Part shown: positions 9,304-29,904 of the stretch, one piece after another | Numbering within the stretch: position 1 is the first letter of the stretch | Layout of the letters: the number at the start of each line of letters is the position of its first letter | From: an uncultured Cytophagales bacterium | Lineage (GTDB): Bacteria > Bacteroidota > Bacteroidia > Cytophagales > Thermoflexibacteraceae | Length of the DNA stretch: 64,000 nucleotides | Assembly: GCA_938039675.1 (NCBI GenBank) | Contig: CALHUI010000014.1 | Coordinates: 62,001-126,000, forward strand | Direction of reading: 5' to 3' | Made by a program: the position numbers and the translations under genes | Notes under the pieces: model-generated | What the model was told of the DNA's origin: nothing | What the model saw: only the letters and a program-made list of their open reading frames with translations | Database searches by the model: none

Positions 9304-9314
9304 TCCAAGAAAAA

Positions 9315-9346
9315 TTTGGAACTTCTTCAGCAGAACCTTAGTTTTG
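9315..9346 (+). promoter_or_regulatory. Promoter of tonB (TTTG-N20-TAGTTTTG)
   Basis: TTTG at 9315-9318 and TAGTTTTG at 9339-9346, 20 bases apart, match the Bacteroidota consensus TTTG ... TAnnTTTG in sequence and spacing. The start codon of tonB is 41 bases downstream. Confidence 0.7.
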
Positions 9347-9386
9347 GCATTGAAGGCTATTATTTACTGTTTAACACCGAAAAAAT

Positions 9387-10202: not shown

Positions 10203-10224
10203 TTTAAGCCTTCTTTCTTTATGC

Positions 10225-10260
10225 AAAGCGCCGATGAAACAATGACATCGGCGCTTTTTT
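10225..10260 (+). terminator. Intrinsic terminator of tonB
   Basis: Perfect 12-bp stem (10225-10236 with 10246-10257), 9-base loop, GC-rich centre and a T run, 22 bases after the tonB stop. Confidence 0.9.
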
Positions 10261-10294
10261 ATATTCTTGCTCTCCATGAAAATGAAACCACTGT

Positions 10295-11176: not shown

Positions 11177-11178
11177 CA

Positions 11179-12141: not shown

Positions 12142-12448
12142 ACAATTTACAGCGGATTTTTGAAATACAGATTCAGGCACATTAGGCGGATTTATGCGAA
12201 TTACCTGCCTCATCCACCAAAAGCCGTGTACTGATGTATCACTAAAAAAATAAACTGATAGTCCTTAGAAGCCGGTGAGGCTTAGATAATTTATATATGT
12301 ATGCCGCTTAAATTTTTGCATAATGCAATTAAGTCCGCCAATTTTCTACGTCAAATGCGCTGAATGCTTGCTGCTAACGATTATTTTTTGGCGTACTTCT
12401 CAATTGAGTCTTTGCGAATTTTGTAGTAGTACTAAACTGTTCATTTAC
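12142..12448. other. Gene-free stretch
   Basis: 307 bases between convergent genes (hydrolase rightward, accD leftward). Only a weak 5-bp hairpin around 12270-12285 is visible; no RNA gene or conserved protein frame recognised. Confidence 0.4.
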
Positions 12449-13288
12449 TTATTTCAGCATGTTGAAAAGCAGGGTCAGTTTGGTTTTGAGTTGCCTTCTG
12501 TCCACAATAAAATCAAGGAAGCCGTGCTCTAACAGGAATTCGGCTGTTTGAAAGCCTTTGGGAAGGTCTTTACCGATTGTTTCGCGAATGACACGCGGCC
12601 CTGCAAAGCCAATCAATGCTCCCGGCTCGGCAATATTAAAGTCGCCCAGCATGGCAAAAGACGCAGAAACCCCACCTGTGGTGGGGTCTGTCATCAGCGA
12701 CACATAAGGCACACCCGCCTCGTGCAACAAGGCAAGTTTGGCAGAGGTTTTTGCCATTTGCATCAACGAAAATCCCGCTTCCATCATGCGTGCACCGCCC
12801 GAGCGGGAGATGACCAGCAATGGCCACCTGTTTTCTAATGCCACATCAATTGCGCGAGCAATTTTTTCGCCTACCACCGAACCCATAGAGCCGCCAATGA
12901 ACTCAAAATCCATACAGGCAATAACAATATGGATACCGTTCATTTTGCCATAGGCAGAGCGGGCAGCATCGTTAAGGCCGGTTTTCGCACGGCTTTCCTG
13001 CAGACGTAAGAGGTAAGACTTGGTGTCGGAGAAATTGAGCGGGTCGCCCGCAATCAGTTCTGGAGCGATTTCAGTAAATTCATTTTTATCAAATAGTATT
13101 TCAAAATACTCACGCGAACCGATTTTAACATGATAACCGTCTTCGGGGCTGACATAACAGTTGTTTTTCAGCTCTTTCATGTGGATAATTTTACCCGTAG
13201 GTGTTTTAAACCACAAACCGTTGGGCGCATCTTTCTTTTCTGCCGTAGGGGTTGTTATGTTTTTTTCGGAACGTTTAAACCAACTCAT
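12449..13288 (-). CDS. accD: Acetyl-CoA carboxylase, carboxyltransferase subunit beta
   Basis: Beta half of the carboxyltransferase that makes malonyl-CoA for fatty-acid synthesis; pairs with AccA, which is not in the window. The start is the ATG at 13288 ([10 protein letters not shown]), preceded by a purine-rich GAGAAGAG; an upstream extension of the frame has no family similarity. Length 279 residues. The crotonase-fold core is intact ([51 protein letters not shown]). Odd point: the N-terminal four-cysteine zinc ribbon of well-studied AccD is absent; where CPxC and CPxC should be, the sequence reads TPTG and VSPED, leaving a single Cys44. A terminator-like hairpin lies between fbaB and this gene. 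Confidence 0.95.
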
Positions 13289-13334
13289 TTCTCTTCTCTG
13301 CTTGCTTTGTCTAAAAATTAAATGGGAATGGGAT

Positions 13335-13370
13335 AAAAAACCTGTGGAGATGAAGCGACATATCCACAAG
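13335..13370 (-). terminator. Terminator-like hairpin between fbaB and accD
   Basis: On the minus strand an 8-bp stem (13370-13363 with 13348-13341, one G-T pair), a 14-base loop and six Ts (complement of 13335-13340), 10 bases after the fbaB stop. accD would be reached only by read-through or from its own promoter. Confidence 0.7.
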
Positions 13371-13380
13371 CAAAACATTG

Positions 13381-14442
13381 TTAGGCAACAGTAATTTCAG
13401 GGGACAGATATACGTCCTGAACCGTATGCAACAGTTCCACACCTTCTGCAAACGGACGCTGGAAGGCTTTGCGACCTAAAATCAGCCCCATGCCGCCGGC
13501 GCGTTTGTTAATAACCGCCGTGCGTACGGATTCGGCCAAGTCGCTTGCGCCGGCCGACTCGCCGCCGGAGTTAATCAAACCTGCACGACCCATGAAGCAG
13601 TTCGCCACCTGATAACGACACAAGTCAATCGGATGGTCGGTGGTCAGCTCTGAGTACATTTTCGGATGCGATTTGCCGAAATTGAGTGCTTTAAAGCCGC
13701 CGTTATTCACAGGCAATTTTTGCTTGATGATGTCTGCCTGAATGGTAGCACCGATATGAGTAGCTTGCGAAGAAATGTCGGTAGCATTATGATAATCCAC
13801 CCCATCTTTTTTGAATGCATTATTGCGAGTGTAGCACCACAAAATGGTAGCCATGCCAAGTTCATGAGCCATCTCGAAGGCTTCTGCCACTTCCACTAAC
13901 TGACGGTTAGACTCTTCCGAGCCAAAGTAGATGGTAGCGCCGACTGCCACAGCACCCAGATTCCATGCCTCTTTTACGCTGCCGAACATAATTTGGTCAA
14001 ACTTGTTAGGGTAGGTCAGCAATTCATTGTGATTAATTTTTACAATGAATGGTATTTTGTGCGCATACTTGCGCGACATCATGCCCAATACGCCAAAGGT
14101 TGTAGCTACACCGTTGCAACCCGCTTCAATTGCCAAGCGAATAATGTTTTCGGGGTCAAAATAAATCGGGTTGGGGGCAAACGATGCACCGGCCGAATGC
14201 TCAATGCCTTGGTCTACTGGTAAGATGGACAGGTAGCCGGTATTTGCCAAGCGACCTGCGCCAAAAAGTTGCCCAAGGCTGCGCAAAACCTGCGGCGAAC
14301 GGTTTGACTGACCAAAAACCTTATGTACAAACTGCGGATTAGGAAGTTGCAGATATTCTTTACTGATAGTTTTGCTTTCGTGATTCAGCAATGAATCGGC
14401 TTCAGAGCCAAGCAGCGATACAAGTTTGTTGTAAGATGACAT
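13381..14442 (-). CDS. fbaB: Class I fructose-bisphosphate aldolase (DhnA/FbaB type)
   Basis: 353 residues. Metal-independent, Schiff-base aldolase that cleaves or forms fructose-1,6-bisphosphate in glycolysis/gluconeogenesis. The family pattern is clear: [18 protein letters not shown] near residue 75, [25 protein letters not shown], and a lysine-bearing strand [10 protein letters not shown] (about residue 240), which corresponds to the Schiff-base region of Fba[15 protein letters not shown] binds phosphate. The leftward neighbour accD is separated by 92 bases holding a terminator-like hairpin. A TAAATTTG element lies 27 bases upstream of the ATG. Confidence 0.94.
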
Positions 14443-14468
14443 AGTTGATAGTGGGTGATGAAACCGTG

Positions 14469-14476
14469 CAAATTTA
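14469..14476 (-). promoter_or_regulatory. Possible -7 promoter element of fbaB
   Basis: TAAATTTG on the minus strand matches TAnnTTTG; 26 bases before the fbaB start. No upstream TTTG at proper spacing was found. Confidence 0.4.
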
Positions 14477-14516
14477 TAATTATTTTACATATATCCCGAA
14501 ACTTTTGAACAAGCAT

Positions 14517-15869
14517 TCACATCAATATTTTGCCGACAGCATAGATAGTAGTCGGATTTATCTGTACAAAAAGCCATATCAGCTTGCGGCTGTCAAAGGC
14601 TCGGTTAGCACCCATATCGAGGATTACATAAGACCTGTCAAAAATTTTATTCAATTGGAAAAGTGCCTGTTTAATATCGCGATGATAGTAGCGGCGATGT
14701 GTTTCCAGAAAGTTATTGCCAATAACCGTTTTTATTTTTGAATGTCGTATCAAAGAGGGGTTGGCATAAATTATCTCAAAAGTTTTTGCCCGGATAATGG
14801 CAAAAAAATTTTCCGCATCATCAAAAAATGCACGGATTTGCCAATCGTTTTCTTTGTTCACCTGCACCTCGCTGATGGCCAGCCAAAATGCGGCGTTCTT
14901 GCCTGCAACGGGTGGTAAAGGTCTGTAATAACAAGCCAACGGCATCGGTTTACCATTGCGATGACTGAACATAATAAAATCCTTAACCTCCCGATTATCA
15001 AGCAGTTGTTGTTCGGTTGCTTTGTAGCGAAGCATCTGCGCTTCATAGGATATCCAACCTCTGTTTTGACGCGAGGCCATATTGAACTGTTCCATCGTAT
15101 AACCCAAAGCAGCAGTAAAGGTTGATGATACCCACTCCATAATGTAGTGCGTGCCGTGCATGTAACCTTTGCAGACAATAGTGGTCATAAAAACTTCCGT
15201 AATCTGATAGCGGGCTATCTCTTCGCTGAGTTTTTGCTGTATGCGGATATAGTCCGTTACATCCCTGATAATGCCTATACCGCCAACAATGTGCCCTTCT
15301 TCATCAAATAACGGACTGATATACAACTCGTTCCAATGATGTTCTTTGTCTGGATAAATATATGTTTTGGCCGGAAACGAAAAGGAATCTCCTGCCAGAA
15401 CGCGGTTTTTGTAAGAAGCATCGCACTCAATATCAATCAGATGAGATATTTTATCAAATATTTCGCTTGGCGTTTTGCCTATGCAAACATCCGCAGGAAC
15501 GCCGGTGATTTGCTCCATCTTAGGATTCCATAGGATGTATTGCAGTTGTCTGTTAAACGCAAATATTCCATCCTGATGGCTGCCAATCAGGCTGCCCGAT
15601 AGTAAATTTTTAATTACCGAATGGCTGCTTTTGCTGCTGCCGTAAGCAATTGACAAAGGTTTTTGCATATTATCGGGGCTTTCGGCTGCCTGAATTTGCA
15701 AACTTGCGTTTTGCTCTTGACGTAGTTTGGCCAATTTTTTTATTTTTTGCTGCAAGGCCGTATTTCTAACCCCGCGTTCGCCTTTTAAAACATGACGAAC
15801 CTGCCTTTTGGTGCATCCAACAATATTTGCTATCATTTCAATATCTGATGCAGTAAGTTCTATCTGCAT
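14517..15869 (-). CDS. PAS-domain regulator with N-terminal helix-turn-helix-like segment
   Basis: 450 residues, cytoplasmic, no membrane helix. Residues 5-50 (TASDIEMIANIVGCTKRQVR and a basic continuation) look like a short helix-turn-helix followed by a lysine-rich helix. A good PAS domain covers about 92-210 (GIFAFNRQLQYILWNPKMEQ, then ITGVPADVCIGKTPSEIF, with the PAC ending GIIRDVTDYI). Two weaker PAS-like segments follow (about 225-335 and 340-450). There is no histidine-kinase, GGDEF, or sigma-54 output domain, so it is best read as a one-component sensor-regulator; DNA binding is inference. A perfect 9+9 palindrome sits just before its start, and a small XRE regulator is divergently transcribed from the same intergenic region. 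Confidence 0.7.
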   Translation of the reverse strand: MQIELTASDIEMIANIVGCTKRQVRHVLKGERGVRNTALQQKIKKLAKLRQEQNASLQIQAAESPDNMQKPLSIAYGSSKSSHSVIKNLLSGSLIGSHQDGIFAFNRQLQYILWNPKMEQITGVPADVCIGKTPSEIFDKISHLIDIECDASYKNRVLAGDSFSFPAKTYIYPDKEHHWNELYISPLFDEEGHIVGGIGIIRDVTDYIRIQQKLSEEIARYQITEVFMTTIVCKGYMHGTHYIMEWVSSTFTAALGYTMEQFNMASRQNRGWISYEAQMLRYKATEQQLLDNREVKDFIMFSHRNGKPMPLACYYRPLPPVAGKNAAFWLAISEVQVNKENDWQIRAFFDDAENFFAIIRAKTFEIIYANPSLIRHSKIKTVIGNNFLETHRRYYHRDIKQALFQLNKIFDRSYVILDMGANRAFDSRKLIWLFVQINPTTIYAVGKILM

Positions 15870-15878
15870 AAGTAATTC

Positions 15879-15903
15879 ATTTGTTCCTTTTTAGGGAACA
15901 AAT
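15879..15903. promoter_or_regulatory. Palindromic operator candidate between the PAS regulator and the XRE gene
   Basis: ATTTGTTCC (15879-15887), 7 bases, GGAACAAAT (15895-15903): a perfect 9-bp inverted repeat beginning 9 bases upstream of the PAS-regulator ATG. It has no T run suited to a terminator and lies between divergent start codons, so an operator for one of the two flanking regulators is likelier. Confidence 0.5.
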
Positions 15904-16009
15904 TAAAAAATAAAAGGGATTTAGAAAAATTTTTGCTTAAAATTTTGCTCAAAATGTAAAATCCTCTAAACTTAGAAATAAAAATGACGTATCATAAATA
16001 CCTAAATCA

Positions 16010-16387
16010 ATGATTAATTTAGCAAACAACATCAAGTTCCTAAGAGACTTGAATAATTTGAGCCAATACGGCTTTGCCAAGTTGTTTAATCTGACAAGAG
16101 GTAAAGTTGCTTCTTACGAAGTCGGTACTGAACCTGCGCTGAAAACGCTGGTGGCAATGGCTAAACATTTCAACCTGACCTTGGATGAGTTGATTATGGC
16201 AGACCTGAGCACAATGGCTCCGCGCCCAAGCGAAGCGCAACTCGCTCAGGAAAGACTGGCAGAAGAAACCAAGTGGGAACGTGTTACAGCCGAACTTGAG
16301 TTGCTGCGCAAGGAAAATGCAGAACTCAAAAAAGATAAGGCGCATTTGCAGGCTTGGTTAGACCAAATTATGAAACGCGGTCTATAA
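16010..16387 (+). CDS. XRE-family helix-turn-helix regulator with C-terminal coiled coil
   Basis: 125 residues. Residues 4-60 form a Cro/CI-type HTH (NNIKFLRDLNNLSQYGFAKL, then NLTRGKVASYEVG and LVAMAKHFNLTLDELIM). Residues 75-118 are rich in heptad Leu/Glu/Lys (ELELLRKENAELKKDKAHLQ), a dimerising coiled coil. It is transcribed away from the PAS regulator, 140 bases apart with a palindrome between. Its last 6 bases overlap the end of the convergent helicase gene. Likely a small DNA-binding regulator; target unknown. Confidence 0.85.
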   Translation: MINLANNIKFLRDLNNLSQYGFAKLFNLTRGKVASYEVGTEPALKTLVAMAKHFNLTLDELIMADLSTMAPRPSEAQLAQERLAEETKWERVTAELELLRKENAELKKDKAHLQAWLDQIMKRGL

Positions 16388-18259
16388 CCACTCCCAAGCA
16401 CTTTTGTAATAAGATTTTTCAATTGTAAAGTCAATTAACGACTGGTAGTAGGGATGATAGCTCAAAGTTGCGCTGTCGCCAATGATTACCAGTCGTTTTT
16501 TTGCGCGGGTGATGGCTACATTGCTTCGCCTGAGGTCGTTTAAGAAGCCGATTTGCCCTTCGGTATTGGAGCGAACCAAACTGATGTAAATCACCTCGCG
16601 CTCCTGCCCCTGAAAACTGTCAATCGTATTGACTTCTATGTATGGATACACACTGCATTTATCGCGCAGTAGTTTCACCTGTGCCTGATACGGGCTGATA
16701 ACCGCTACCGGACGCCGTAATAATTCTTGCTCCCGTAAAATAATTTTCAACAGCAAATCGGCTTCGGCTTCATTGGATGTGCTGCCTGTGGCTTCATTGG
16801 TGTACTCCTCAAAACCGCAACCTGCTGTGTCTATAAAAGCAAGCGGAGGCAGTTGCGGGTCTAACCACTCGCTGCCAATGCTATCGGCTGCCTGCAACTC
16901 GTTGTAATAGAACCAGCGCGAAGGAAATGCCATAATATCGGGATGCATACGGTATTGAACGGTAAGCATAACGCTCATCCATTTCCCGTAGCGACCGTTC
17001 ATGCAGCGCTCCATTAGGCTGACAGCCAAGCCCTTACGTGCAGCCTCTTCCGATTTGACTACTGCGGGCAGTTGGCAATGGTCGCCCGCCATTACTACGC
17101 GGTCGGCTTTGGCAATTGCTATCCATGCGGCGGGTTCGAGTGCCTGTGCGGCTTCGTCTATAAAAACTGTTTTAAAATGGTATTGCCTCAGCGATGCGTG
17201 TGCAGCACCTGTAACCGTACTTACAATTGCCTGTGCGTTGGCAAATACGTCATTGACGATATAACCCTCTGTTTTATTGGCCAGTTGCAAATAATCTTTA
17301 GCTTCGGCACGCAGCAACTTGCGTTCTTCGTGGGCTTTCTGGTCAAAGTTGCGCTTAAATTTGCCTGCCTGTAAAAACAGTTGCATAGCCGTGCGTCGCC
17401 ATTGCAGCATCTGCTTATAGTCGGGGTGGCGTTCTATTTGCCCGTCGAGAGTAAGCGTCTGCAACTCCTCTCCTACCCTTGCAGGATTACCTACTCGCAC
17501 TACTCTCATGCCTTTATGTGCCAATTTTTCTGCCAACAAGTCAGCAGCAGCATTGTTGGGTGCTGTAACCAACACTCGTTTTTCATGGGCAACGGTTTGG
17601 TGAATAATTTCTATCAGAGTAGTAGTTTTACCCGTACCCGGCGGCCCGTGCACAATGGCCACATCCTGTGCCCGATGTACTAACGCAAGCGCATCTAACT
17701 GCCTTTGGTTGAGCGACTGCGGTGCCGTTATGTGTTCGTTGGTTGTGAACGAAGGCGCGCTGTTACCTGCCAATATTTCGCGCAGCTCTGCCAAGCGGTT
17801 GCCGCGAGCTTCAATCACTGCCTGCAAAGCCTTCGCCATTTCCTGATAAGTGGTTGCGTCGTACATCAGCGTCAGCCCCAGCGATGTTCCTTCTGCCCAT
17901 TCGGGAAGTTCCTCTTCGTCTAACACAATGGTCAGTTTATCCTGTGTGGCTTTGGTTACGACACCGCGTGTGCGTTCGGTGATTTTTCCGTTTTTCCAAA
18001 CGGCCAGTACTACTGCCGCATTGGGCTGAAATACCTGCGGCGCATCGGTGGCAGTTGTGCGGGCAACCTCCAACCGCAAGCGATTGCCCGTTGTTGTGTC
18101 GCTGCTCAGGATTTGCAGCGGATGCCATGTATAACCGCTTTTGCACTGTTCGCCCAGCGGCACTTCTCCTATGCGCTGCTTAAATAATTGCTCTTCTGCC
18201 CTTTGCTCTAAGCCAATGAGGGCAAGCATCTGCTGCAAATGTGCCAGAGATTCGGACAT
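16382..18259 (-). CDS. Superfamily 1 DNA/RNA helicase, UPF1/IGHMBP2-like
   Basis: 625 residues. Walker A HGPPGTGKTTTLIEII is near residue 205, Walker B-type VFIDEAAQALEPA near 365, followed by motif III (VMAGDHCQLPA), motif IV-like QYRMHPDIMAFPS, motif V (VNTIDSFQGQEREVIYIS) and motif VI (NVAITRAKKRLVIIGD). The N-terminal ~190 residues form the beta-barrel-like insertion of the Smubp2/UPF1 group (for example TRGVVTKATQDKLTIVLDE). Such proteins unwind DNA or RNA 5'-to-3' using ATP; the bacterial ones are poorly studied. It stands alone, its end overlapping the convergent XRE gene by 6 bases. Complete, no broken motif. Confidence 0.92.
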   Translation of the reverse strand: MSESLAHLQQMLALIGLEQRAEEQLFKQRIGEVPLGEQCKSGYTWHPLQILSSDTTTGNRLRLEVARTTATDAPQVFQPNAAVVLAVWKNGKITERTRGVVTKATQDKLTIVLDEEELPEWAEGTSLGLTLMYDATTYQEMAKALQAVIEARGNRLAELREILAGNSAPSFTTNEHITAPQSLNQRQLDALALVHRAQDVAIVHGPPGTGKTTTLIEIIHQTVAHEKRVLVTAPNNAAADLLAEKLAHKGMRVVRVGNPARVGEELQTLTLDGQIERHPDYKQMLQWRRTAMQLFLQAGKFKRNFDQKAHEERKLLRAEAKDYLQLANKTEGYIVNDVFANAQAIVSTVTGAAHASLRQYHFKTVFIDEAAQALEPAAWIAIAKADRVVMAGDHCQLPAVVKSEEAARKGLAVSLMERCMNGRYGKWMSVMLTVQYRMHPDIMAFPSRWFYYNELQAADSIGSEWLDPQLPPLAFIDTAGCGFEEYTNEATGSTSNEAEADLLLKIILREQELLRRPVAVISPYQAQVKLLRDKCSVYPYIEVNTIDSFQGQEREVIYISLVRSNTEGQIGFLNDLRRSNVAITRAKKRLVIIGDSATLSYHPYYQSLIDFTIEKSYYKSAWEWL

Positions 18260-19359: not shown

Positions 19360-19469
19360 TTCAAACACAAAACTCTGAAAATCAAAAACTTACAAATCAT
19401 GGCATTTCATTGGTGCAAGCAGAGGTGTCAAGTTAATCATCGTATTTAAACTTAAACGTTGTTTCAGCA

Positions 19470-20045
19470 ATGAAAAAATCGTTCATTAAATTCGCCTTGG
19501 TTGCGTTGCCTTTTTTGCCGTAGAGCCTCCTTCGATGAAGGCACTCGAGAAGTTTGCTTACGACGCCTATGTGCCTCAGGGACAAAAAAATCCGTATGGC
19601 ATTTGAAAACAGCACAGGCAAAGCCATCAGCCTGCGAATCTATGACCAAAGCAATCGGTTGGTGTACTCCAAAAGCTGAACAACATTGATAAAATGCGTC
19701 GTAATTATATTTTCGCAGATGACCTTGCCAAGGGTGTTTATCACATGGGCTTGCGTGCAGGAGAATTTACTGGCAGCAGCAAGGCATGGTCTCCGGCAAA
19801 AATTCTCTGCCTATGTATCGCCTGAAATTACAGACGGGCTCATCAAAGCAGCTTATGAAGGTAATAACGAAGGTGTATATCTGAGCATTACAAACAAAAA
19901 CGGTGCAGTGATTTACTCCGAAAGAACTGGCATCCAAAGCAATTTTACCCGCCGCTATGACCTGAGCAAATTACCTAAAGGCAAATGCACCTTGCAGGTT
20001 TTACATGGTGAAAAGAACATTGAGCAGACGTACGAAGTAAAGTAA
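19470..20045 (+). pseudogene. Frameshifted small secreted protein with two related domains
   Basis: A signal-peptide-like start MKKSFIKFALVALPFLP at 19470 hits a stop; shifting frame gives AFFAVEPPSMKALEKFAYDA; another shift gives KIRMAFENSTGKAISLRIYD; another gives LNNIDKMRRNYIFADDLAKG; a last shift gives KFSAYVSPEITDGL and then GVYLSITNKNGAVIYSERTG ending YEVK* at 20045. At least four frame changes are needed. The two halves resemble each other (SLRIYDQSNRLVYSKS versus YLSITNKNGAVIYSERT; YIFADDLAKGVYHMGL versus YDLSKLPKGKCTLQVL), so the intact gene carried a duplicated beta domain behind a signal peptide, of a small exported-protein type common in Bacteroidota. Function unknown. Only the last ~70 codons are still an open frame. 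Confidence 0.75.
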
Positions 20046-20060
20046 TCGGCAGTTACGGGT

Positions 20061-20104
20061 AAAAAACAGCTGCTCGTTCCTCAACAGAAGAGCGGCTTTT
20101 GTAT
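20061..20104. terminator. Bidirectional terminator between convergent genes
   Basis: Eight-base-pair stem AGCTGCTC/GAGCGGCT (20068-20075 with 20090-20097, one G-T pair), preceded by a run of As (20061-20066) and followed by Ts (20097-20100), between the pseudogene end and the GH32 gene end. Confidence 0.65.
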
Positions 20105-20115
20105 TTCCACGATTG

Positions 20116-21687
20116 TTATTTCTTTATTTCGGGTTTCAGGTCGCGGAAAGAGGATGTTACTAATCTGGCCAATCCTTTGCCTTTTTGGGCAAATGCCACT
20201 ACGCCACGACTTTTTTCAGACGGAAAAACCACGTTGCTGATGGTATAACGCCCATCTTGGGCAAATACCTCTACGTTATTGCGGTCAAACAACACGCGCA
20301 GTTTAAGATTTTCGCCGTTTGTATCAATCGCTACACTGTCCAAAACAGTAAACTTCGGGCTAAACGATACATTGCCCGACTTGCTGCGGTCTAAATAGAG
20401 CATCTTACGGGCTGCATCGTAGCGAATCACCGTTTCTTCCGTATCAGTTTTGAAAATTTTAAAACCAAAAACTGCATCGTTAGCAAATTCAAAAGTGCCT
20501 TCAATATCGTAGAGGTCTCCGCCTTTGTCCTGATTACCAACGACTAACTCTCCTGCCCGTTGGAGTTCTATGTTTTCATAGCGTGTAGTAGATTTAGCCA
20601 TGTCATTGACCATTTCTACGGGTTGTTGCAGCAAACGGTAGCCTTCCGGTTCTTTGCGTAAATACAACATGCGCGGAATAGCCATTCCGTTGCGCCAAGG
20701 ATGCGTAGGCACTTGATTAGCATATGCCCAGTTGCTTATCCAACCCAGCAATACGCGGCGGTCGTTGGGTATATGGTTGAACGTAACAGCAGCAAAATAA
20801 TCGCGCCCGTAGTCTAAATACAGCGGCTTATTGGCAGGGTTGTCGTTCTTGAATCGCTTGCCGTCAAACTCACCGATGAAATATTGCACCCCCTGAAAGC
20901 CGGGATAAGGCCCTTCGGCAGAAATAAGCAGTACCCATTTTTGCTTGCCGGGTTCGTTTTCTACAGGTAAAGAGAACAAATCCGGGCATTCCCAAGGGAT
21001 GGCTACGTTCCCTTCCGGTCCGAACTCGCTCAGCAACTCCCAGTTTTTCAGGTTGGCAGAGCCGTAAAACTGCGTTTTATGTTCATTGGGCAGATTGACC
21101 GCCATAATCCATTTTTTACTTTCCTCGTGCCAAAAAACTTTAGGGTCGCGAAAGTCTTTTTTGCCTAAATCTATGACAGGGTTTTTGTCGTACTTTGTCC
21201 ATGTCCGCCCTTTGTCGGTGCTGTATGCCATGTGCTGCGTTTGCAGATACACATCGGGGTTTTTAGGGTCTAAAATGCGGTGAGCGGTATAAAATGCCAC
21301 AAAAGCATTTTCGCCAAATCCTGCAGTGTTGTTTTTATCTACAACGGCACTGCCGGAAAAAATCATGGCAGTATCCTCTGCAATGGCGATGGGCAGTTCT
21401 TCCCAATGCAGCAGGTCGTGGCTGACGGCATGCCCCCAGTGCATATGTCCCCATACTTTATCAAAAGGATTGTGCTGGAAGAAAAGATGAAATTCGCCGT
21501 TGTGGTACAACAGCCCATTGGGGTCGTTTGTCCAGAATTTCCGCGGTGTAAAATGGAATTGCGGACGCAAATGCGCCGTTGTACTGTCAGTAAGTTGGCT
21601 GTTTTGCTCCCCTTCTTTGGCGGCAGGATTGCAGGCAGCCACTGCTGCAAGGGTCAATAGGCCAAGCAAGTGTGATTTTATCTTCAT
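20116..21687 (-). CDS. Glycoside hydrolase family 32 lipoprotein (levanase/fructanase-type)
   Basis: 523 residues. Signal peptide with lipobox ending AAVAAC (Cys19), so membrane-anchored and probably periplasmic or surface-exposed. The GH32 catalytic set is visible: nucleophile Asp55 in FWTNDPNGLLY, FRDPKVFWH for the stabilising aspartate, and the acid/base glutamate in WECPDLFSLP. The five-bladed propeller is followed by the usual C-terminal beta-sandwich (about 390-523). It should hydrolyse beta-fructosides (levan, inulin or sucrose); which one cannot be told. It is the last gene of a three-gene operon: its ATG overlaps the stop of the haloperoxidase-like gene by 4 bases (ATGA). Confidence 0.93.
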   Translation of the reverse strand: MKIKSHLLGLLTLAAVAACNPAAKEGEQNSQLTDSTTAHLRPQFHFTPRKFWTNDPNGLLYHNGEFHLFFQHNPFDKVWGHMHWGHAVSHDLLHWEELPIAIAEDTAMIFSGSAVVDKNNTAGFGENAFVAFYTAHRILDPKNPDVYLQTQHMAYSTDKGRTWTKYDKNPVIDLGKKDFRDPKVFWHEESKKWIMAVNLPNEHKTQFYGSANLKNWELLSEFGPEGNVAIPWECPDLFSLPVENEPGKQKWVLLISAEGPYPGFQGVQYFIGEFDGKRFKNDNPANKPLYLDYGRDYFAAVTFNHIPNDRRVLLGWISNWAYANQVPTHPWRNGMAIPRMLYLRKEPEGYRLLQQPVEMVNDMAKSTTRYENIELQRAGELVVGNQDKGGDLYDIEGTFEFANDAVFGFKIFKTDTEETVIRYDAARKMLYLDRSKSGNVSFSPKFTVLDSVAIDTNGENLKLRVLFDRNNVEVFAQDGRYTISNVVFPSEKSRGVVAFAQKGKGLARLVTSSFRDLKPEIKK

Positions 21688-23069
21688 TGTGCAGTGGTTG
21701 AGTTAATTTTTGTGCGTAAAAGTACCCAATTGCCTACTTTTTTGCCTTGTTCGGCGCTTAGCTTGAGTGTGCTCCGGTAGTGAATCCCGCCGTACAGTCG
21801 GCTGATGGAACACTCCTCGGCGGCCTGCCTGAATGAGCTGAAACTTCTTACCGAACGGCCGTAGGGCACTTCCGTACTGTCATTGAAGGCAAAACTATCA
21901 CCGTAAAGGGCAGTCAGCACTTCGGCCACGGCAGAAGAAATTACGCTGTGCCCGCTGGTATATTCGGGGAAAGGAGGGGTTTGCAAAAACGGCTCCCATG
22001 TTTCGTCCATGTATTTGTTGATGACGGCAATAGGGCGCGGCATGTTGCTGTAAAATTTTTCTTCCCAGCAGGAAATAAAACCATCAAATAAAGCAATACT
22101 GACTATAGCGAAACATTGAGCAGTACGGGCAGCATCGGCATTAGTATTGCGGACTATTTGCGAAGTTAGCATCATCCAGTGCCCGCCGGGGGTCATTTTT
22201 TTAGAATTGAAAACCACGTGCCCTTTGTGGTGCGATACGAAAGGGTTATCATCCCAAAAAGATGCGATTTCCTGTTGTTCTTTGGTAAGTTGCCTGCTCA
22301 CATCAAACACATCCTGTACTTCTTTGAAGTAGGGGCTGTTTTTTTTGTTGGAATAAGGAATCGGGCGCGGCGGTTTGAACTGTGCGGCAGAGTCCAGCAC
22401 TAGCGTTGCAATGGTACACCAATAAGGCTCTAAGGCATCGGCATAATCGGGCGGCGTAGGATTCCACACATCCTCCCGAGGGGTTACATTGTATCGCTCA
22501 TAGCCCCGCGACTCTTTGTAGTTGTCTTTGGCAGCACGGGCAAGAATAGCTTTACCCACAGCCTCGCCAAACTCGGTTGCCTTTGCAATGGTTTCCTTGG
22601 GCATACCGCTTTTTTCTACGGCAGCCATCACTTCCTTTTCGCAGCCGTTGAGCGAATCGTGCGAAAAGGTAACATTTCTTGCCACCGTAAACATGGCTTT
22701 CAAACCTGCCAGTGCTGCCGCCTTACTGATGTCGGTTGAAGGAACGGGCATAGGGTCAAACCCGCGCAGACGAGCAGTAAGCGAAGGATATTTTGCCGTA
22801 TCTGCCCAACGGGTGGCTTCATAGGCTGCCAGTGAGGTGTAGGCATAAATCCGACTGGCAACTGGCGGCGAAAAGATGTCGTAAATAACTACATCGGTAA
22901 CTTCTTGCAAACCTTTGTGCAATAGCACGGGCGAATCGGCGGCAATAGATTGCATATTGCCAGCAGATGCCTCTTGCGTGCCTTTCTGCGTGCCGTTACA
23001 TGCTTGCAAACCTGCAAAAAGTCCCGACAGGCTGCACAGGAGCAAACAAAAACGAAGAGAAATTGTCAT
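21684..23069 (-). CDS. Vanadium-dependent haloperoxidase / PAP2-superfamily lipoprotein
   Basis: 461 residues from ATG 23069, chosen because it overlaps the previous stop as ATGA and begins the signal peptide MTISLRFCLLLCSLSG with lipobox GLQAC (Cys24). The C-terminal half carries the full vanadate/phosphate-binding set of the vanadium chloroperoxidase/PAP2 superfamily: Lys and Arg in EEKFYSNMPRPIAV, Ser-Gly-His in YTSGHSVISSAV, and Arg plus the catalytic His in SRLYGGIHYRST. Such proteins oxidise halides with peroxide or act as acid phosphatases; sequence alone does not decide. It is the middle gene of a CRTAC1 - haloperoxidase - GH32 operon with 4-base overlaps on both sides. Confidence 0.88.
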   Translation of the reverse strand: MTISLRFCLLLCSLSGLFAGLQACNGTQKGTQEASAGNMQSIAADSPVLLHKGLQEVTDVVIYDIFSPPVASRIYAYTSLAAYEATRWADTAKYPSLTARLRGFDPMPVPSTDISKAAALAGLKAMFTVARNVTFSHDSLNGCEKEVMAAVEKSGMPKETIAKATEFGEAVGKAILARAAKDNYKESRGYERYNVTPREDVWNPTPPDYADALEPYWCTIATLVLDSAAQFKPPRPIPYSNKKNSPYFKEVQDVFDVSRQLTKEQQEIASFWDDNPFVSHHKGHVVFNSKKMTPGGHWMMLTSQIVRNTNADAARTAQCFAIVSIALFDGFISCWEEKFYSNMPRPIAVINKYMDETWEPFLQTPPFPEYTSGHSVISSAVAEVLTALYGDSFAFNDSTEVPYGRSVRSFSSFRQAAEECSISRLYGGIHYRSTLKLSAEQGKKVGNWVLLRTKINSTTAQ

Positions 23070-26000
23070 TGTTTTTGCGGCAAAAAGTTGATTGTTTTCA
23101 CGGATGAACTTTGCCATATAGAGCGGCTGCTTTGTGAAAGAAACGATGAGCCGATGTACAATTCATGGCGACGGATTTTGCCATTAGCAAGTGTCAGCAA
23201 AGCCACATAAGCGCGGGCAGGCGGCAGTTCCTTGCGGCGATTGACGCGGCTGCGGAAGGTGAGCAGGGTATTGCGGTTGCGGCTTACCACATACAGCGGC
23301 TGACCGTTTGCCCCGCTGATTTGTACCAATGCCTTCGCATCTTGGGGAGCAAACCAGCCGCTCTGTGCTAAATTGGCGGCTTCAAATTCCCCGTTGCCTT
23401 TACCTTTCAGCAGTAAGCCGTAAAAAGCATCCTGTCTGCCTGTCATTACCTCAGTGCCGTAATCATTGCCCACAAGTAAAACATCCAAATTGCCGTCATC
23501 GTCCACGTCGTCGGCTAATAAGCCGAAAACAGGGCTGTACTGGGCTTCCAACGGCAGTTGCCGAATTTCAAACTGCCCATTGCCTTTATTTTCAACATAG
23601 GCCGATGCCAAAAAGTTGGCCATATGTACGGTTGCCATTTTCAGCGTATCTGCACCCAACGACTCGGCCATGCCTGCCGAAGCAAAGGCTTTGTAGCTGG
23701 TAAATCGGGCTTTGATAGAAATCATTTGTTTCATCATGTCATCTCGGCCAAAAAACGGAAACTCGCGAAGCACGCCGGCATCGTCGGGGAAATAGGCAGT
23801 CGGTATGGCATCGTAGCTGCCGTTTTTGTCAAAATCGGCGGAGTAGAGCCGCACGGGTCGTTCTGCAGTAGGACGAAACAGGTTGTTCAGTCCAAAATTA
23901 CCTGCAATGTAATCAATATCGCCGTCGTTGTCAAAGTCAGCGCCTGTAAGGCTGTTCCACCAGCCTGTGAGTTGGTCTAAACCGTTGCCTCTTTGGCGGG
24001 TCAGTTTGCCCTTGTCGTTGCGAAACAACGTCAGCGGCATCCACTCGCCTGCCAGCAGCAGGTCATGGTCGCCGTCATTGTCAGAATCTGTCCACAGTGC
24101 ATCGCAAATCATGCCTATGTCTATCAGCTCAGGGGCTGTTTGGGCGGTAACATCGGTGAATTTTACCGTACCGATTTGCGTGTCGTTGCGAAGCAGAAAA
24201 CTGCTCACCGATTTGGGATAAAACTGCGGGCAGTTGCGTCCGCCAATAAACAAGTCAAGGTCGCCGTCTTGGTCAAAATCGGCAGCCTTCACGCATGATT
24301 TGCTGACCAGCAATTTGGGGATGGCCTGTAGCTGCAAAATAAACCTGCCTTTTTCGTTCAGATAGAATCGGTCTTGGTAAGCACCTGTTCCCTGCGGTTG
24401 CTCATTGCTGCCGCTGGCGATGTATAGGTCATCGTCGCCGTCGCTGTCGGCATCAAAAAAGAGTACACCCATATCTTCGTGGATTTTGGCGCTACTGTCC
24501 GCATCGGCAATCAGGTCTTGCATCTCAAATTTGCCGTCGGGCTTTTGTATAAAAAATCGTCCTTTGCGCTGATTGCTTCCGCCAATGAAAAGGTCTTCCA
24601 ACCCGTCGCCGTTTGCATCGGTAACTGCCAGTGCGGGGCCGTATTGCGACAACTTGTGCGGCAATAGTTTTTGCAAATTGAAGTCCACATAATCCAGTTC
24701 ATCGTGGCGGTATTGGATGGTCTCATCGCCGCTGAGAGCCTGAAACAAGGGCTGTTCAGCTGCTGTATCGGCAGGTGCAATTGGTGCACCTGCTTTGGCA
24801 TATTCTGCCACAATTACTTGATTAGCAGATACATCTTTCAAAGTTTGGGTTTTGCCATCCGGCCAGGTGATGCGCACCTCATCCACCTTTTGCACAGCTC
24901 CCAAGCCGAAGTGAGCCACATTTTCCATGGTGGAAAGATAGCCGCGATACAGGCTGTTTTCGTGTATTTGCTTTTCGCCGTTGCCATAGCGCAACTCAAC
25001 AATGGTTCCTACACCCATCGGATTTTTATCCGACCCTTTAAAGCGGATGCGGAGATAATTGCGGTCGGTGCGTTTCTGCTCGGTCAGGTTATTGCGGTAC
25101 ACATGCGCAGAATCGTCAATATTATTGACAATATAATCCAAATCGCCGTCGTTGTCCAAATCGGCGTAGGCGGCACCGTTAGAAAAGCTCGGCTGCTCTA
25201 TCCCCCACGCTTCCATCACTTTTTCAAATAAGCCGTTGCCTTTATTGCGAAAAGCATAGTTTTTCAGCTTCACGCGCGGAATTTCTTCCAGCAACATTTC
25301 TTTAGGCGCATAAATAGCCATTGCGGCGCGGTAAGCGGCAAAGTCGCGGTCGGTGATGTCTTTCGGGAAACCGTTGGTAACTATCAGGTCGCGGAGACCG
25401 TCGCCATCAAAATCTGCCACCAAGGGTGTCCAACTCCAATCGGTTTCCGCAATGCCCGCCAGCATGGAGATATCGGAGAAAACGGGCAGAGAGATTCCCG
25501 GCCTGTTGCCACGATTGAGTTGCAGTGTATTGCGCACAAACTGGTACTGATACCCAAACTGGTCGTTGTTGATGTAGTGATAGTAATTGGCGGGCGCAAG
25601 CATCTGCTTTTTGCGGCGGTTGTCTTCGGGCAGCATATCCAGCGCAATAATATCGGCAAGACCGTCATTGTTTATATCGGCTACATCATTGCCCATGGCC
25701 GAGTAGCAGGTGTGCATGAACATTTCGGGTGCATGGTCGGTAAACGTGCCATTGCGGTTGTTGATGTAAAAAATGTCGTTGGTCAAGTAGTCATTGGTGA
25801 TGTAAATATCCTTCCAGCCGTCGCGGTTGATGTCGCAAATATTGATGCCTAAGCCAAAACCCTCAATGGTAATGCCTGCCTGTTTAGAAACATCGGTGAA
25901 GCGGGCATGGCCAAGCGCACTGTCGTAGTCGTTGCGATAAAGCCGGTCGGTAATTACGGCGCTGCCGTCGGTAATTTTTTTGCGGTACTTGTTGGGGTAA

Positions 26001-26596
26001 GCGGTTTGCGACATCTCATTGACCAGAATATATAGGTCTAAATCGCCGTCGTTGTCATAGTCAAAAAAGGCGGCGTTGGTGGTGTGTGTGGTGTCGGCAA
26101 TGCCATATTCGGCAGCCATTTCCCTAAAAACGGGTACACCATTTTTAATTCCTTGATTTACAAACAGTTGATTGGCTCTTTTAACAGGTTCGGGGTGTGC
26201 GGTTGCACATACGTACAAATCGGTCCATCCATCGGTGTTGATATCTACCACAGCCACTCCCGATGACCAGCAGTCGGCTGCCGTTACACCTGCGCGGTCG
26301 GTGATGTCTTCAAACTGCCATCCGCCTTTATTCAGGTATAACTGATTGGCGACCATGTTGCCCGTAAAGTACACGTCCTGTAAGCCGTCGTTGTTGAAAT
26401 CGGCAATGGCAACACCACCCCCGTTGTAAATGTATTCAAAGTCCAAGATATTCATAGTGTCGGTTTCCGTAATTCGGTTGGAAAAACGGATGCCCGAATC
26501 TCCCGCAGGAATAGCCGTAAACTGTTTGTTGTAGTGGTTGCAAGCCGTCAATACTGTAAGAACCACATAAGCTGACCATCTGTAAATCGGGTTCAT
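23066..26596 (-). CDS. CRTAC1-family FG-GAP/VCBS repeat lipoprotein with ASPIC/UnbV domain
   Basis: 1176 residues from ATG 26596 (MNPIYRWSAYVVLTVLTACN; lipobox LTAC, Cys19). A seven-bladed beta-propeller is formed by many FG-GAP/VCBS repeats with calcium-binding loops of the type DFNNDGLQDVYFTGN, DINTDGWTDLYVC, DYDNDGDLDLYILVN and DANGDGLEDLFIGG, spread over about residues 50-500 and 640-1130. An ASPIC/UnbV domain lies between (about 520-590: GVGTIVELRYGNGEKQIHEN, VRITWPDGKTQTL). Such proteins are exported calcium-stabilised surface propellers without known catalytic function. It is first in the operon; its stop TGA overlaps the ATG of the haloperoxidase-like gene. Confidence 0.92.
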   Translation of the reverse strand: MNPIYRWSAYVVLTVLTACNHYNKQFTAIPAGDSGIRFSNRITETDTMNILDFEYIYNGGGVAIADFNNDGLQDVYFTGNMVANQLYLNKGGWQFEDITDRAGVTAADCWSSGVAVVDINTDGWTDLYVCATAHPEPVKRANQLFVNQGIKNGVPVFREMAAEYGIADTTHTTNAAFFDYDNDGDLDLYILVNEMSQTAYPNKYRKKITDGSAVITDRLYRNDYDSALGHARFTDVSKQAGITIEGFGLGINICDINRDGWKDIYITNDYLTNDIFYINNRNGTFTDHAPEMFMHTCYSAMGNDVADINNDGLADIIALDMLPEDNRRKKQMLAPANYYHYINNDQFGYQYQFVRNTLQLNRGNRPGISLPVFSDISMLAGIAETDWSWTPLVADFDGDGLRDLIVTNGFPKDITDRDFAAYRAAMAIYAPKEMLLEEIPRVKLKNYAFRNKGNGLFEKVMEAWGIEQPSFSNGAAYADLDNDGDLDYIVNNIDDSAHVYRNNLTEQKRTDRNYLRIRFKGSDKNPMGVGTIVELRYGNGEKQIHENSLYRGYLSTMENVAHFGLGAVQKVDEVRITWPDGKTQTLKDVSANQVIVAEYAKAGAPIAPADTAAEQPLFQALSGDETIQYRHDELDYVDFNLQKLLPHKLSQYGPALAVTDANGDGLEDLFIGGSNQRKGRFFIQKPDGKFEMQDLIADADSSAKIHEDMGVLFFDADSDGDDDLYIASGSNEQPQGTGAYQDRFYLNEKGRFILQLQAIPKLLVSKSCVKAADFDQDGDLDLFIGGRNCPQFYPKSVSSFLLRNDTQIGTVKFTDVTAQTAPELIDIGMICDALWTDSDNDGDHDLLLAGEWMPLTLFRNDKGKLTRQRGNGLDQLTGWWNSLTGADFDNDGDIDYIAGNFGLNNLFRPTAERPVRLYSADFDKNGSYDAIPTAYFPDDAGVLREFPFFGRDDMMKQMISIKARFTSYKAFASAGMAESLGADTLKMATVHMANFLASAYVENKGNGQFEIRQLPLEAQYSPVFGLLADDVDDDGNLDVLLVGNDYGTEVMTGRQDAFYGLLLKGKGNGEFEAANLAQSGWFAPQDAKALVQISGANGQPLYVVSRNRNTLLTFRSRVNRRKELPPARAYVALLTLANGKIRRHELYIGSSFLSQSSRSIWQSSSVKTINFLPQKQ

Positions 26597-26754
26597 AGGC
26601 AATCAAGTTTCTTCATTTAGCAGTAAAATAGAAAAATTTTTGCCATCCGCAACAAATTGCTACATCACCCGGCACGGCAGATTTGTTTACAAAAACACCT
26701 AAAATTACACAAAAAAAACCGTAATTAACAGTCGTATTGAAATGTTACACGCAA

Positions 26755-29700
26755 ATGAAAACACTACATTACTACCTTAGGCTGCTGCTGATGATGATGA
26801 TAGCCAGTAACAGCCTGAACGTTTGGGCACAACGCAGCAACCGTTCAGCAGAAGCGGCAACAACGGTCGCTAACAACTCACTGCCTGAAAAATTTGTTTA
26901 CTGGCGCAGTATTGGCCCCTTCCGTGGTGGGCGCTCTTGTGCTGTAACAGGCGTAAATGGCCAGCCAAATTTGTTTTACATGGGTGCTACCGGCGGCGGC
27001 GTATGGAAAACCACTGACGGCGGCAACAGTTGGACAAACATTTCCGACGGATTTTTTGGGGGCTCTATCGGTGCAATTGCAGTGGCAGAATCTGACCCGA
27101 ACGTGATTTATGTAGGCGGCGGCGAAAAAACTGTGCGCGGTAACGTATCTCATGGATATGGTATGTGGAAAAGTATGGACGCAGGCAAAACCTGGCAGTC
27201 CATCGGCTTGGAAGACAGCCGCCACATCGGGCGCATCCGCGTGCATCCTAAAAACCCCGATTTGGTGTATGTGGCAGTAATGGGGCACTTGTTCGGACCG
27301 CATGAACAGCGCGGTGTTTACCGCAGCAAAGACGGCGGCAAAACGTGGGAACGCATCCTGTTTGCCAACAATCAGGCGGGCGCAGTGGACTTAATTTTAG
27401 ACCCTAACAACCCGCGCATTATGTATGCCTCCACTTGGCGCGTTATCCGCACGCCTTACAGCATGGAAAGCGGCGGCGAAGGTTCGGCACTTTGGAAAAG
27501 TACCGACGGCGGCGATACGTGGAAAAATATTTCGGGCAACAAAGGCCTACCCAAAGGCACACTGGGCATTATTGGTGTTACGGTTTCTCCGAAAAACTCC
27601 AACCGCGTATGGGCTATTATAGAAGCTAATGAAGGCGGCGTTTTCCGCTCCGATGACGGCGGCGAAACATGGATGAAAACCAATGAAGACCGTGCCTTGC
27701 GCCAACGCGCATGGTACTATACGCGCATTTATGCCGACACACAAAACGAAGACATGGTCTATGTCCTAAACGTTAGCTATCACCGCAGCAAAGACGGCGG
27801 GCGAACCTTCCAAGCATTCAACGCTCCTCACGGCGACCACCACGACCTCTGGATTTCATCTGTCAATAACCAAAGCATGATTATTGGCGATGACGGCGGC
27901 GCACAAGTCAGCCAAGACGGCGGCACGAACTGGACAACCTACCACAACCAGCCAACCGCGCAATTTTACCGCGTAACGACCGATAATCATTTCCCGTATC
28001 GCATCTACGTTGCCCAGCAGGACAATTCTACCTTGCGCATTGCGCATCGCAGTTTTTCCAACGGCGGCATCACCGAAAAAGACTGGGAAGAAACCGCAGG
28101 CGGTGAAAGCGGACACATTGCTGTTAATCCGCAAAATAACGACATCGTATTCGGCGGCTCCTACGGCGGCTTCTTAGAGCGATTAGACCACAGTACGGGC
28201 GAATCGCGCAATGTAAACATTTATCCCGAAAACCCGATGGGCAGCGGCGCAGAAGGCATGAAATACCGCTTCCAGTGGAACTTCCCGATTTTCTACTCTC
28301 CGCATGACCCCAATACACTCTATGCAGCGGGCAATCACCTGTTCAAAACCACCAACGAAGGCCAAAGTTGGCAGATAATTAGCCCCGATTTGACGCGCAA
28401 CGTAGCCGACCGCATGAAGGCATCAGGCGGGCCTATCACCAAAGACAACACAGGCGTAGAATACTACTGCACCATTTTTGCCGCCTGTGAGTCGCCATAC
28501 GAAAAAGACCTGCTCTGGGCAGGCAGCGACGACGGCCTAATCCATATCAGCCGCGACGGTGGCAAAAACTGGGAAAACGTAACACCCCCCGCCTCCATCA
28601 TGCCCGAATGGATGATGATTAACAGCATAGAGCCGCATCCTTTCGTTAAAGGAGGCGCTTATGTGGCAGGCACGCGCTATAAAATGGACGATTTCCAGCC
28701 CTACCTGTTCGTAACTACTGACTACGGCAAAACCTGGCGAAAAATCACCAACGGTATCAAAAAAGACCACTTCACCCGCGTGCTGCGTGCCGACCCCGTA
28801 CGTAAAGGATTGCTCTTTGCCGGAACGGAAAGCGGCATGTACATTTCTTTTGACGACGGCGCAAATTGGCAAAGTCTGCAATTCAACCTGCCTATTGTAC
28901 CCATCACCGACCTGACCATCAAAGACGGCGACCTGATTGCCGCTACGCAAGGCCGCAGCCTCTGGCTCATTGACGACCTAACACCACTCCGCAACTGGCA
29001 ACCTGCCACTGCCCAAAAAGCGTTTGAGTTGTACCAGCCGCGCCCTGCCTACCGCATAGGAGGAGGCAACGCTTACAGAAATCCTAAACTACACGGCGAA
29101 AACCTCAACAGTGGCGTTATGGTACAGTTTTTCCTGAAAAATGCACCCGATTCGGCCAATGTGGTAACGCTGGAATTTATGGACAAAGACCAAAAACTGA
29201 TTAAGCGCTATGCAAGCAATGCCAAAGAACGCCGCGAGCAATTAGAAGCGCAAGCAGGCGGCAACCGTTTCTTTTGGAACATGCGCTACCCCGATGCCGA
29301 AGGTTTTGATGGGCTGATTTTGTGGGGTGGTGGCTTGCAAGGGCCGCCGGCTGTTCCCGGCAACTACTTTGTCAAACTGAAAGTCGGTAAAGATTCTGCC
29401 GTGCAGGCGTTTGAAATCAGCAAAGACCCGCGCTCTAAGGCTACGCAAGAAGATTTGCAGGCACAGTTTACTTTCCTTACCGAAGTGCGCGACAAACTAA
29501 CCGAAACGCACAAAGCCATCAAAAACATCCGCGCCATGCGCGAGCAACTCAATGCCTACACCAAACGCTTAGACAAAACCAAAGACAAAGATTTGCTTGA
29601 CCAAATCGGCCACACACAGAAGCAAATGACCGAAATAGAGGAAGCGCTTTATCAAACCAAAAACCGCAGCGGACAAGACCCACTCAACTTCCCGATTCGC

Positions 29701-29904
29701 CTCAATAACAAACTGAGCGACTTGGCGGGGGTAGTAGGTTCGGGCAACTTCCGCCCTACCGACCAAGCAGTAGCGGTTAAAAATGACATCACAGCCAAAA
29801 TTGATGCGGAACTGGTAAAACTGAAAGCCATTTTCAGCAATGAGTTACCTAAGCTCAATGAGGCTATCAAAGCGAAAAATCTGGATGCCATTGTGCTGCC
29901 CTAA
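26755..29904 (+). CDS. Exported sortilin/VPS10-like BNR (Asp-box) propeller protein
   Basis: 1049 residues from ATG 26755, after which the signal peptide (MKTLHYYLRLLLMMMIASNS, ending VWAQ) begins; a TTG 18 bases earlier is less likely. About eleven Asp-box motifs are present (KTTDGGNSWT, KSMDAGKTWQ, RSKDGGKTWE, KSTDGGDTWK, RSDDGGETWM and so on to ISFDDGANWQ), forming one or two beta-propellers over residues 40-740. The WRSIGPFRGGRSCAVTG start is typical of a large Bacteroidota family annotated as glycosyl hydrolase or VPS10 domain protein, mostly without proven activity. The C-terminal ~300 residues have an Ig-like part and a Lys/Glu-rich helical part. Predicted periplasmic or secreted; function unknown. 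Confidence 0.9.
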   Translation: MKTLHYYLRLLLMMMIASNSLNVWAQRSNRSAEAATTVANNSLPEKFVYWRSIGPFRGGRSCAVTGVNGQPNLFYMGATGGGVWKTTDGGNSWTNISDGFFGGSIGAIAVAESDPNVIYVGGGEKTVRGNVSHGYGMWKSMDAGKTWQSIGLEDSRHIGRIRVHPKNPDLVYVAVMGHLFGPHEQRGVYRSKDGGKTWERILFANNQAGAVDLILDPNNPRIMYASTWRVIRTPYSMESGGEGSALWKSTDGGDTWKNISGNKGLPKGTLGIIGVTVSPKNSNRVWAIIEANEGGVFRSDDGGETWMKTNEDRALRQRAWYYTRIYADTQNEDMVYVLNVSYHRSKDGGRTFQAFNAPHGDHHDLWISSVNNQSMIIGDDGGAQVSQDGGTNWTTYHNQPTAQFYRVTTDNHFPYRIYVAQQDNSTLRIAHRSFSNGGITEKDWEETAGGESGHIAVNPQNNDIVFGGSYGGFLERLDHSTGESRNVNIYPENPMGSGAEGMKYRFQWNFPIFYSPHDPNTLYAAGNHLFKTTNEGQSWQIISPDLTRNVADRMKASGGPITKDNTGVEYYCTIFAACESPYEKDLLWAGSDDGLIHISRDGGKNWENVTPPASIMPEWMMINSIEPHPFVKGGAYVAGTRYKMDDFQPYLFVTTDYGKTWRKITNGIKKDHFTRVLRADPVRKGLLFAGTESGMYISFDDGANWQSLQFNLPIVPITDLTIKDGDLIAATQGRSLWLIDDLTPLRNWQPATAQKAFELYQPRPAYRIGGGNAYRNPKLHGENLNSGVMVQFFLKNAPDSANVVTLEFMDKDQKLIKRYASNAKERREQLEAQAGGNRFFWNMRYPDAEGFDGLILWGGGLQGPPAVPGNYFVKLKVGKDSAVQAFEISKDPRSKATQEDLQAQFTFLTEVRDKLTETHKAIKNIRAMREQLNAYTKRLDKTKDKDLLDQIGHTQKQMTEIEEALYQTKNRSGQDPLNFPIRLNNKLSDLAGVVGSGNFRPTDQAVAVKNDITAKIDAELVKLKAIFSNELPKLNEAIKAKNLDAIVLP

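Follow-up and report, generated by a model that had tools for sequence, protein, structure and literature searches.

The window, by which we mean the whole stretch of 64,000 nucleotides that was analyzed, contains an operon of three overlapping genes that encode an FG-GAP/ASPIC protein, a vanadium haloperoxidase (VHPO), and a GH32 glycoside hydrolase. The three protein families are all known ones. What is new is the order of the genes, a recent variant found in one genus only. The reading that we favor, tentatively and with somewhat less than even confidence, is that the operon is a genus-specific version of a module that is widespread in Bacteroidota and pairs a CRTAC1-like protein with a VHPO of the iodoperoxidase type, often within operons for the uptake of small glycosides, and that a GH32 enzyme was recruited to it for the use of sucrose or fructo-oligosaccharides at the cell envelope.

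The open reading frames and the raw sequence bear out the original prediction of three minus-strand genes joined by two stop/start overlaps, and the features of the locus are as follows.

26596-23066, minus strand: FG-GAP/ASPIC gene (open reading frame list and raw sequence)
23069-21684, minus strand: VHPO gene (open reading frame list and raw sequence)
21687-20116, minus strand: GH32 gene (open reading frame list and raw sequence)
23069-23066, minus strand: ATGA, in which the start codon of VHPO overlaps the TGA stop of FG-GAP
21687-21684, minus strand: ATGA, in which the start codon of GH32 overlaps the TGA stop of VHPO
20061-20097, minus strand: candidate weak terminator hairpin and T-run after GH32 (fold of -15.3 kcal/mol over 20050-20112, z -1.56)
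26597-26736, between the operon and a BNR/sortilin-like gene: divergent intergenic region of 140 bp, from the gene layout; presumed promoter region of the operon

The mechanically called reading frames start slightly upstream for two of the genes, at 26602 (TTG) for FG-GAP and at 23117 (ATG) for VHPO; the ATG codons at 26596 and 23069 give clean leader peptides. Read by eye, the leaders end in lipobox-like cysteines (LTAC-N for FG-GAP, LQAC-N for VHPO, and VAAC-N for GH32), and all three are lipoprotein-like, as had been proposed, with a Gln at position -2 of the VHPO leader that is atypical for a lipobox. The hairpin at 20061-20097 is a possible weak terminator of the operon. The terminator scan did not report it, and no convincing Bacteroidota-type promoter match was found in 26597-26736; both the promoter and the terminator scans performed at chance level. 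The gene divergent from the operon (26737-29904, plus strand) encodes a BNR/sortilin-like secreted protein of 1055 aa. On the other side of the operon, several short reading frames at 19466-20045 (plus strand) have an unbroken counterpart in a congener, G002 (L037:8131-8742, 203 aa, Por_Secre_tail type), and the gene appears to have been broken by frameshifts or sequencing error.

Taken by themselves, ATGA overlaps are common in bacterial operons, and the weight of those described here comes from their conservation between congeneric species. Four species were compared, that of the window (G000) and three others (G001, G002, and G003). The GH32 gene adjoins the VHPO gene in three of the four, and the full trio is present in G000 and G002. 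The VHPO-GH32 overlap is conserved in G000, G002, and G003, and the FG-GAP-VHPO overlap in G000, G002, and G001. In G003, the coupled VHPO-GH32 pair shares its contig with the FG-GAP orthologue (82%), which lies ~43 kb away and has kept its place next to the BNR/sortilin-like gene, as it has in G002; the trio is therefore not indispensable. In G001, FG-GAP and VHPO remain coupled and GH32 is found on contig C44, beside a purine-synthesis gene and a TonB receptor. The GH32 tree shows the genus as monophyletic, with G001 basal and a branching that follows the species order, which argues for vertical inheritance and for a move of GH32 to its place behind VHPO after G001 had split off; less simply, the gene may have moved away from VHPO in G001. 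The same tree does not support acquisition of GH32 from elsewhere. On this view, the single, vertically inherited GH32 gene reached its place directly behind VHPO in the ancestor that G000, G002, and G003 share.

Well beyond the genus, CRTAC1-type and haloperoxidase genes are often neighbors, as the original prediction supposed. Of 80 named VHPO relatives that were fetched, 71 had at least 3 kb of upstream sequence and were counted. FG-GAP lies upstream of VHPO on the same strand in 48 of these loci, within 400 bp in 37, and never on the opposite strand; SusC/SusD lie upstream in 28. A class-level sample has FG-GAP adjoining VHPO at 17 of 29 loci. GH32 occurs at just one of the 71 named loci, that of a congener, and in a class-wide sample of 22 GH32 loci, none had VHPO or FG-GAP within 1.5 kb. 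In order-mates, GH32 stands in MFS-fructokinase-SusC-SusD-GH32 loci or alone. The coupling to a fructan-cleaving GH32 had been called fixed; among the genera examined, it is seen only in that of the window, whose basal species has the gene on another contig, and elsewhere GH32 is normally unlinked while CRTAC1-like-VHPO pairs are widespread on their own. The trio as a phylum-wide unit was rejected on the strength of the 80 named loci, 40 genome stretches, and the 22 class GH32 loci.

GH32 and VIPO-type VHPO genes co-occur at the level of the genome. Among 59 order-level genomes, 19 have both, 3 have GH32 only, 2 have VHPO only, and 35 have neither (p = 2e-10); the corresponding counts in 197 class-level genomes are 11, 9, 24, and 153 (p = 7e-5), and the association persists after stratification by SusD count (CMH p = 3e-4). 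The co-occurrence is partly explained by SusD richness and was rejected as proof of joint function, being confounded with PUL richness and based on statistics that ignore phylogeny.

The carbohydrate genes that surround VHPO across Bacteroidota were surveyed at 112 non-redundant loci, with surrounding genes identified by similarity to Pfam-scanned representatives. GH65 lies on the VHPO strand at 22 of these, accompanied in the survey by GlpK (7), GlpF (6), GlpD (6), DUF3179 (6), ROK (5), an MFS porter (4), GH37 trehalase (2), and GH116 (1); GH32 is on that strand at 2 loci, both from the window's genus. None of these genes was found on the opposite strand at the 112 loci. In the 19 GH32-centered control loci, GH65 and Glp genes are absent and ROK occurs once. 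Judging by 59 whole genomes (260 Mb, ~23 GH65 genes), ~0.18 GH65 genes would be expected in 112 loci versus the 22 observed, a comparison that ignores phylogeny and includes several loci from one genus. A carbohydrate link of the haloperoxidase, as originally suggested, is thus plausible in general, since glycosidase and sugar or glycerol genes occur far above chance; a specific tie to fructan gained no support.

Clusters of the type FG-GAP/ASPIC-GH65-VHPO-MFS-GlpF-GlpK-GlpD-DUF3179-ROK, all on one strand, were observed in several Cytophagales and other Bacteroidota. Those of the GH65-VHPO-Glp type are located as follows.

L102 (Cyclobacteriaceae), 7889-17561: FGGAP-...-GH65-VHPO-GlpF-GlpK-GlpD-DUF3179-ROK
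L138, 7886-18049: FGGAP-...-GH65-VHPO-MFS-GlpF-GlpK-GlpD-DUF3179
L124, 7813-14470: cluster of this type
L105 (Chryseosolibacter), 7764-14390: FGGAP-FGGAP-GH65-VHPO-trehalase-GlpK
L083, 6783-19303: cluster of this type
L043, minus strand: cluster of this type

A further locus, L154, reads VHPO-trehalase-SSF symporter-GlpK-GlpD. The order SusC-SusD-FGGAP-VHPO recurs at many loci (Mucilaginibacter, Rhodocytophaga, Chitinophagaceae), and at several from Spirosoma, Larkinella, and Pontibacter it is extended to SusC-SusD-FGGAP-VHPO-...-GH65. The GH65 of the clusters reaches 1133 bits as a kojibiose hydrolase equivalog, against a cut-off of 800, and is nearest to FjGH65A (7fe3), an alpha-1,2-glucosidase (PMC8626586). 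Such loci look as if they serve glucosides whose breakdown yields glucose and, at some of them, glycerol as well, so that 2-O-alpha-glucosylglycerol or kojibiosyl-glycerol would be a fitting substrate. The FG-GAP and VHPO proteins of both the SusC-SusD-CRTAC1-like-VHPO and the FG-GAP-GH65-VHPO-GlpF-GlpK-GlpD operons are homologous to those of the window, where GH32 is present and SusC/D, GH65, and Glp genes are missing. On the favored reading, GH32 would fill the glycosidase slot that is held elsewhere by GH65, trehalase, or GH116, with the SusC/SusD part absent.

Other arrangements were also seen around VHPO. In Mucilaginibacter operons, FG-GAP proteins of ~500 aa with a CxxCH haem-c-like motif (by eye) are encoded directly downstream of VHPO (15 in the cluster; L113:11319-12869, L117, L125, L128, and others). 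At L132, L143, L153, and L158, VHPO overlaps a truncated-haemoglobin-like gene by a stop/start junction, with an FAD amine-oxidase-like gene adjoining, and the VHPO/truncated-haemoglobin-like arrangement is conserved in several Cytophagaceae genomes (identities by eye).

We consider it possible, if somewhat doubtful, that the gene order is an accident, in which a small genome has been rearranged, GH32 hitchhikes behind VHPO simply to be expressed, and the two enzymes have no joint function. The confinement of the VHPO-GH32 link to one genus fits such an accident, as does the slot behind VHPO elsewhere, which by eye also holds unrelated genes, among them those for a methyltransferase, for ABC transporters, and for proteins resembling truncated haemoglobin. 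The parts of the larger clusters are, moreover, scattered in the window genome: it has a second VHPO, which groups with the GH65-linked clade, one GH65 that is 74% identical to the cluster type, and dispersed ASPIC paralogues and ROK kinases. FG-GAP, GH65, and the second VHPO occur singly, as dispersal and re-joining predict. However, the ATGA coupling persists across 76-93% VHPO identity in three species, and the recurrence of glycosidase and sugar or glycerol genes around VHPO far above chance also argues against coincidence.

VHPO genes within operons that look designed for small-sugar uptake are a habit of Bacteroidota that is much wider than the trio and apparently undescribed; we found no literature description of SusC/D-CRTAC1-GH65-VHPO-Glp operons, or of VHPO with FG-GAP/ASPIC, SusC/D, or GH65, in a search that covered subscription journals thinly. 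This habit permits a broader proposal, which we hold only loosely. The iodoperoxidase-type VHPOs of Bacteroidota might not serve mainly in defense or halogenation. They might instead work, together with a CRTAC1-like propeller, in SusC/D-linked operons that take up small glycosides such as kojibiosides or glucosylglycerol, trehalose, and sucrose, the GH32 trio being the sucrose version.

The VHPO of the window (461 aa; Pfam PAP2, 1.7e-9) aligns over residues 47-452 with ZgVIPO1, the Zobellia galactanivorans iodoperoxidase (4cit; phmmer E 4.5e-114). Residues K338, R345, S372-G373-H374, R424, and H430, the vanadate-binding positions of the superfamily, are invariant in 7 homologues. The protein thereby combines full-length similarity with the seven vanadate-binding/catalytic residues of the iodoperoxidase type. 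It shares the K...RP, SGH, and SR....H motifs with ZgVIPO1 (PDB 4cit/4usz) and differs in being coupled to GH32 and a CRTAC1-like gene and in that its halide activity is predicted from homology. Since the vanadate-site residues are common to haloperoxidases and PAP2 acid phosphatases, the sequence is no proof of halide oxidation. The enzyme could physiologically be an exported phosphatase that removes phosphate from phosphorylated glycerol or sugars, or from the head groups of glycolipids, with the neighboring glycosidase and importer genes consuming the product. The PAP2 fold itself is common to phosphatases, and the presence of GlpF/GlpK/GlpD, kojibiose-hydrolase-type GH65, and trehalase beside the enzyme in several genera fits the release of glycerol and glucosides. 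We nevertheless regard this as unlikely, given the full-length similarity to ZgVIPO1, which is described as an iodoperoxidase, and the fact that sucrose use by GH32 needs no phosphatase.

The GH32 protein (523 aa), the only GH32 in the 3.28-Mb window genome, is of the exo-beta-fructosidase type. Both its N-terminal propeller (Glyco_hydro_32N, PF00251, 2.7e-92, 310 bits) and its C-terminal sandwich (32C, PF08244, 6.5e-29, 101 bits) score over the curated cut-off, and the catalytic motifs of the family are present as WTNDPNG (NDPNG at 54), RDP (180), and WEC (232). Its closest relatives are exo-inulinases (8i12, E 2.4e-122; 1y4w, E 2.2e-104). It shares both domains and the catalytic motifs with these exo-inulinases/levanases, but it is without PUL partners and sits behind VHPO. 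The MFS-fructokinase-SusC-SusD-GH32 fructan locus of Bacteroidota, found in order-mates, likewise has the GH32 enzyme in common with the window, whereas the window lacks the transporter, kinase, and SusC/D and has VHPO and FG-GAP instead. Indeed, the reading frames at 12-36 kb of the window include no SusC/SusD-sized pair, as originally noted, and therefore not the adjacent SusC/SusD of a PUL; nor do the neighbors of the trio include the fructokinase or fructose porter of a fructan utilization locus. A search of the genus for close relatives of the PUL-type fructokinase found none (best E 5e-5, in G000); a sugar porter is present (44% identity), on another contig than the trio, as are two ROK kinases. 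From its sequence, the GH32 protein could be specific for sucrose or for fructan alike, which counts against a dedicated-fructan reading. A surface complex devoted to fructan use or to modification of a fructan-like matrix, as first envisaged, is very improbable: the exo-inulinase similarity and the lipoprotein-like leaders would suit it, but the locus is without the SusC/SusD or fructokinase of ordinary fructan loci and the coupling is absent outside the genus. Nor did any observation point to a fructan-like matrix.

The FG-GAP protein (1176 aa) has two beta-propellers of the FG-GAP kind, and its ASPIC/UnbV domain spans ~528-595 (Pfam FG-GAP_3, 4e-63; UnbV_ASPIC, 1.2e-23). Its AlphaFold2 model has a mean pLDDT of 89.1 and a pTM of 0.89, and by far the best fold match in the PDB is murine CRTAC1 (9etn, E 9e-28, TM 0.72 over the target). 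The protein thus has the FG-GAP repeats, ASPIC domain, and fold of the CRTAC1-like group. Murine CRTAC1 has the same fold as the propeller and ASPIC half of the window protein, which, unlike it, is about twice as long, has a second propeller, and is a bacterial lipoprotein-like protein.

From these identities we infer how the trio may work. The CRTAC1-like double-propeller protein would be made together with VHPO and located at the surface or in the periplasm, where its fold suggests a Ca-binding scaffold or ligand binder. GH32, at the cell envelope, would cleave sucrose or short fructo-oligosaccharides and so supply a sugar porter with fructose and glucose. VHPO, by homology, would carry out the peroxide-driven oxidation of iodide or bromide, either to dispose of peroxide or to make a mild biocide. 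We saw no source of peroxide at the locus itself; peroxide might come as a by-product of local sugar or glycerol oxidation or from phototrophic neighbors. Arenibacter C-21, which has PAP2/iodoperoxidase homologues, offers a precedent for sugar-dependent peroxide and a haloperoxidase working together, as glucose-dependent peroxide and haloperoxidase have been proposed for its iodine uptake (PMC5064120).

These substrates may also bear on the habitat. Trehalose is a cyanobacterial solute. Sucrose and glucosylglycerol are described as such in two papers (PMC6753628, PMC10873239). Use of sucrose, trehalose, and glucosylglycerol would, as a hypothesis, suit mat-dwelling bacteria. Beyond the trio, the wider pattern of VHPO genes in sugar and glycerol operons, with a CRTAC1-like partner and a GH65 of the kojibiose-hydrolase type, suggests substrates on which the VHPO family of Bacteroidota could be tested, and it offers a bacterial setting in which to ask what CRTAC1-type proteins do.
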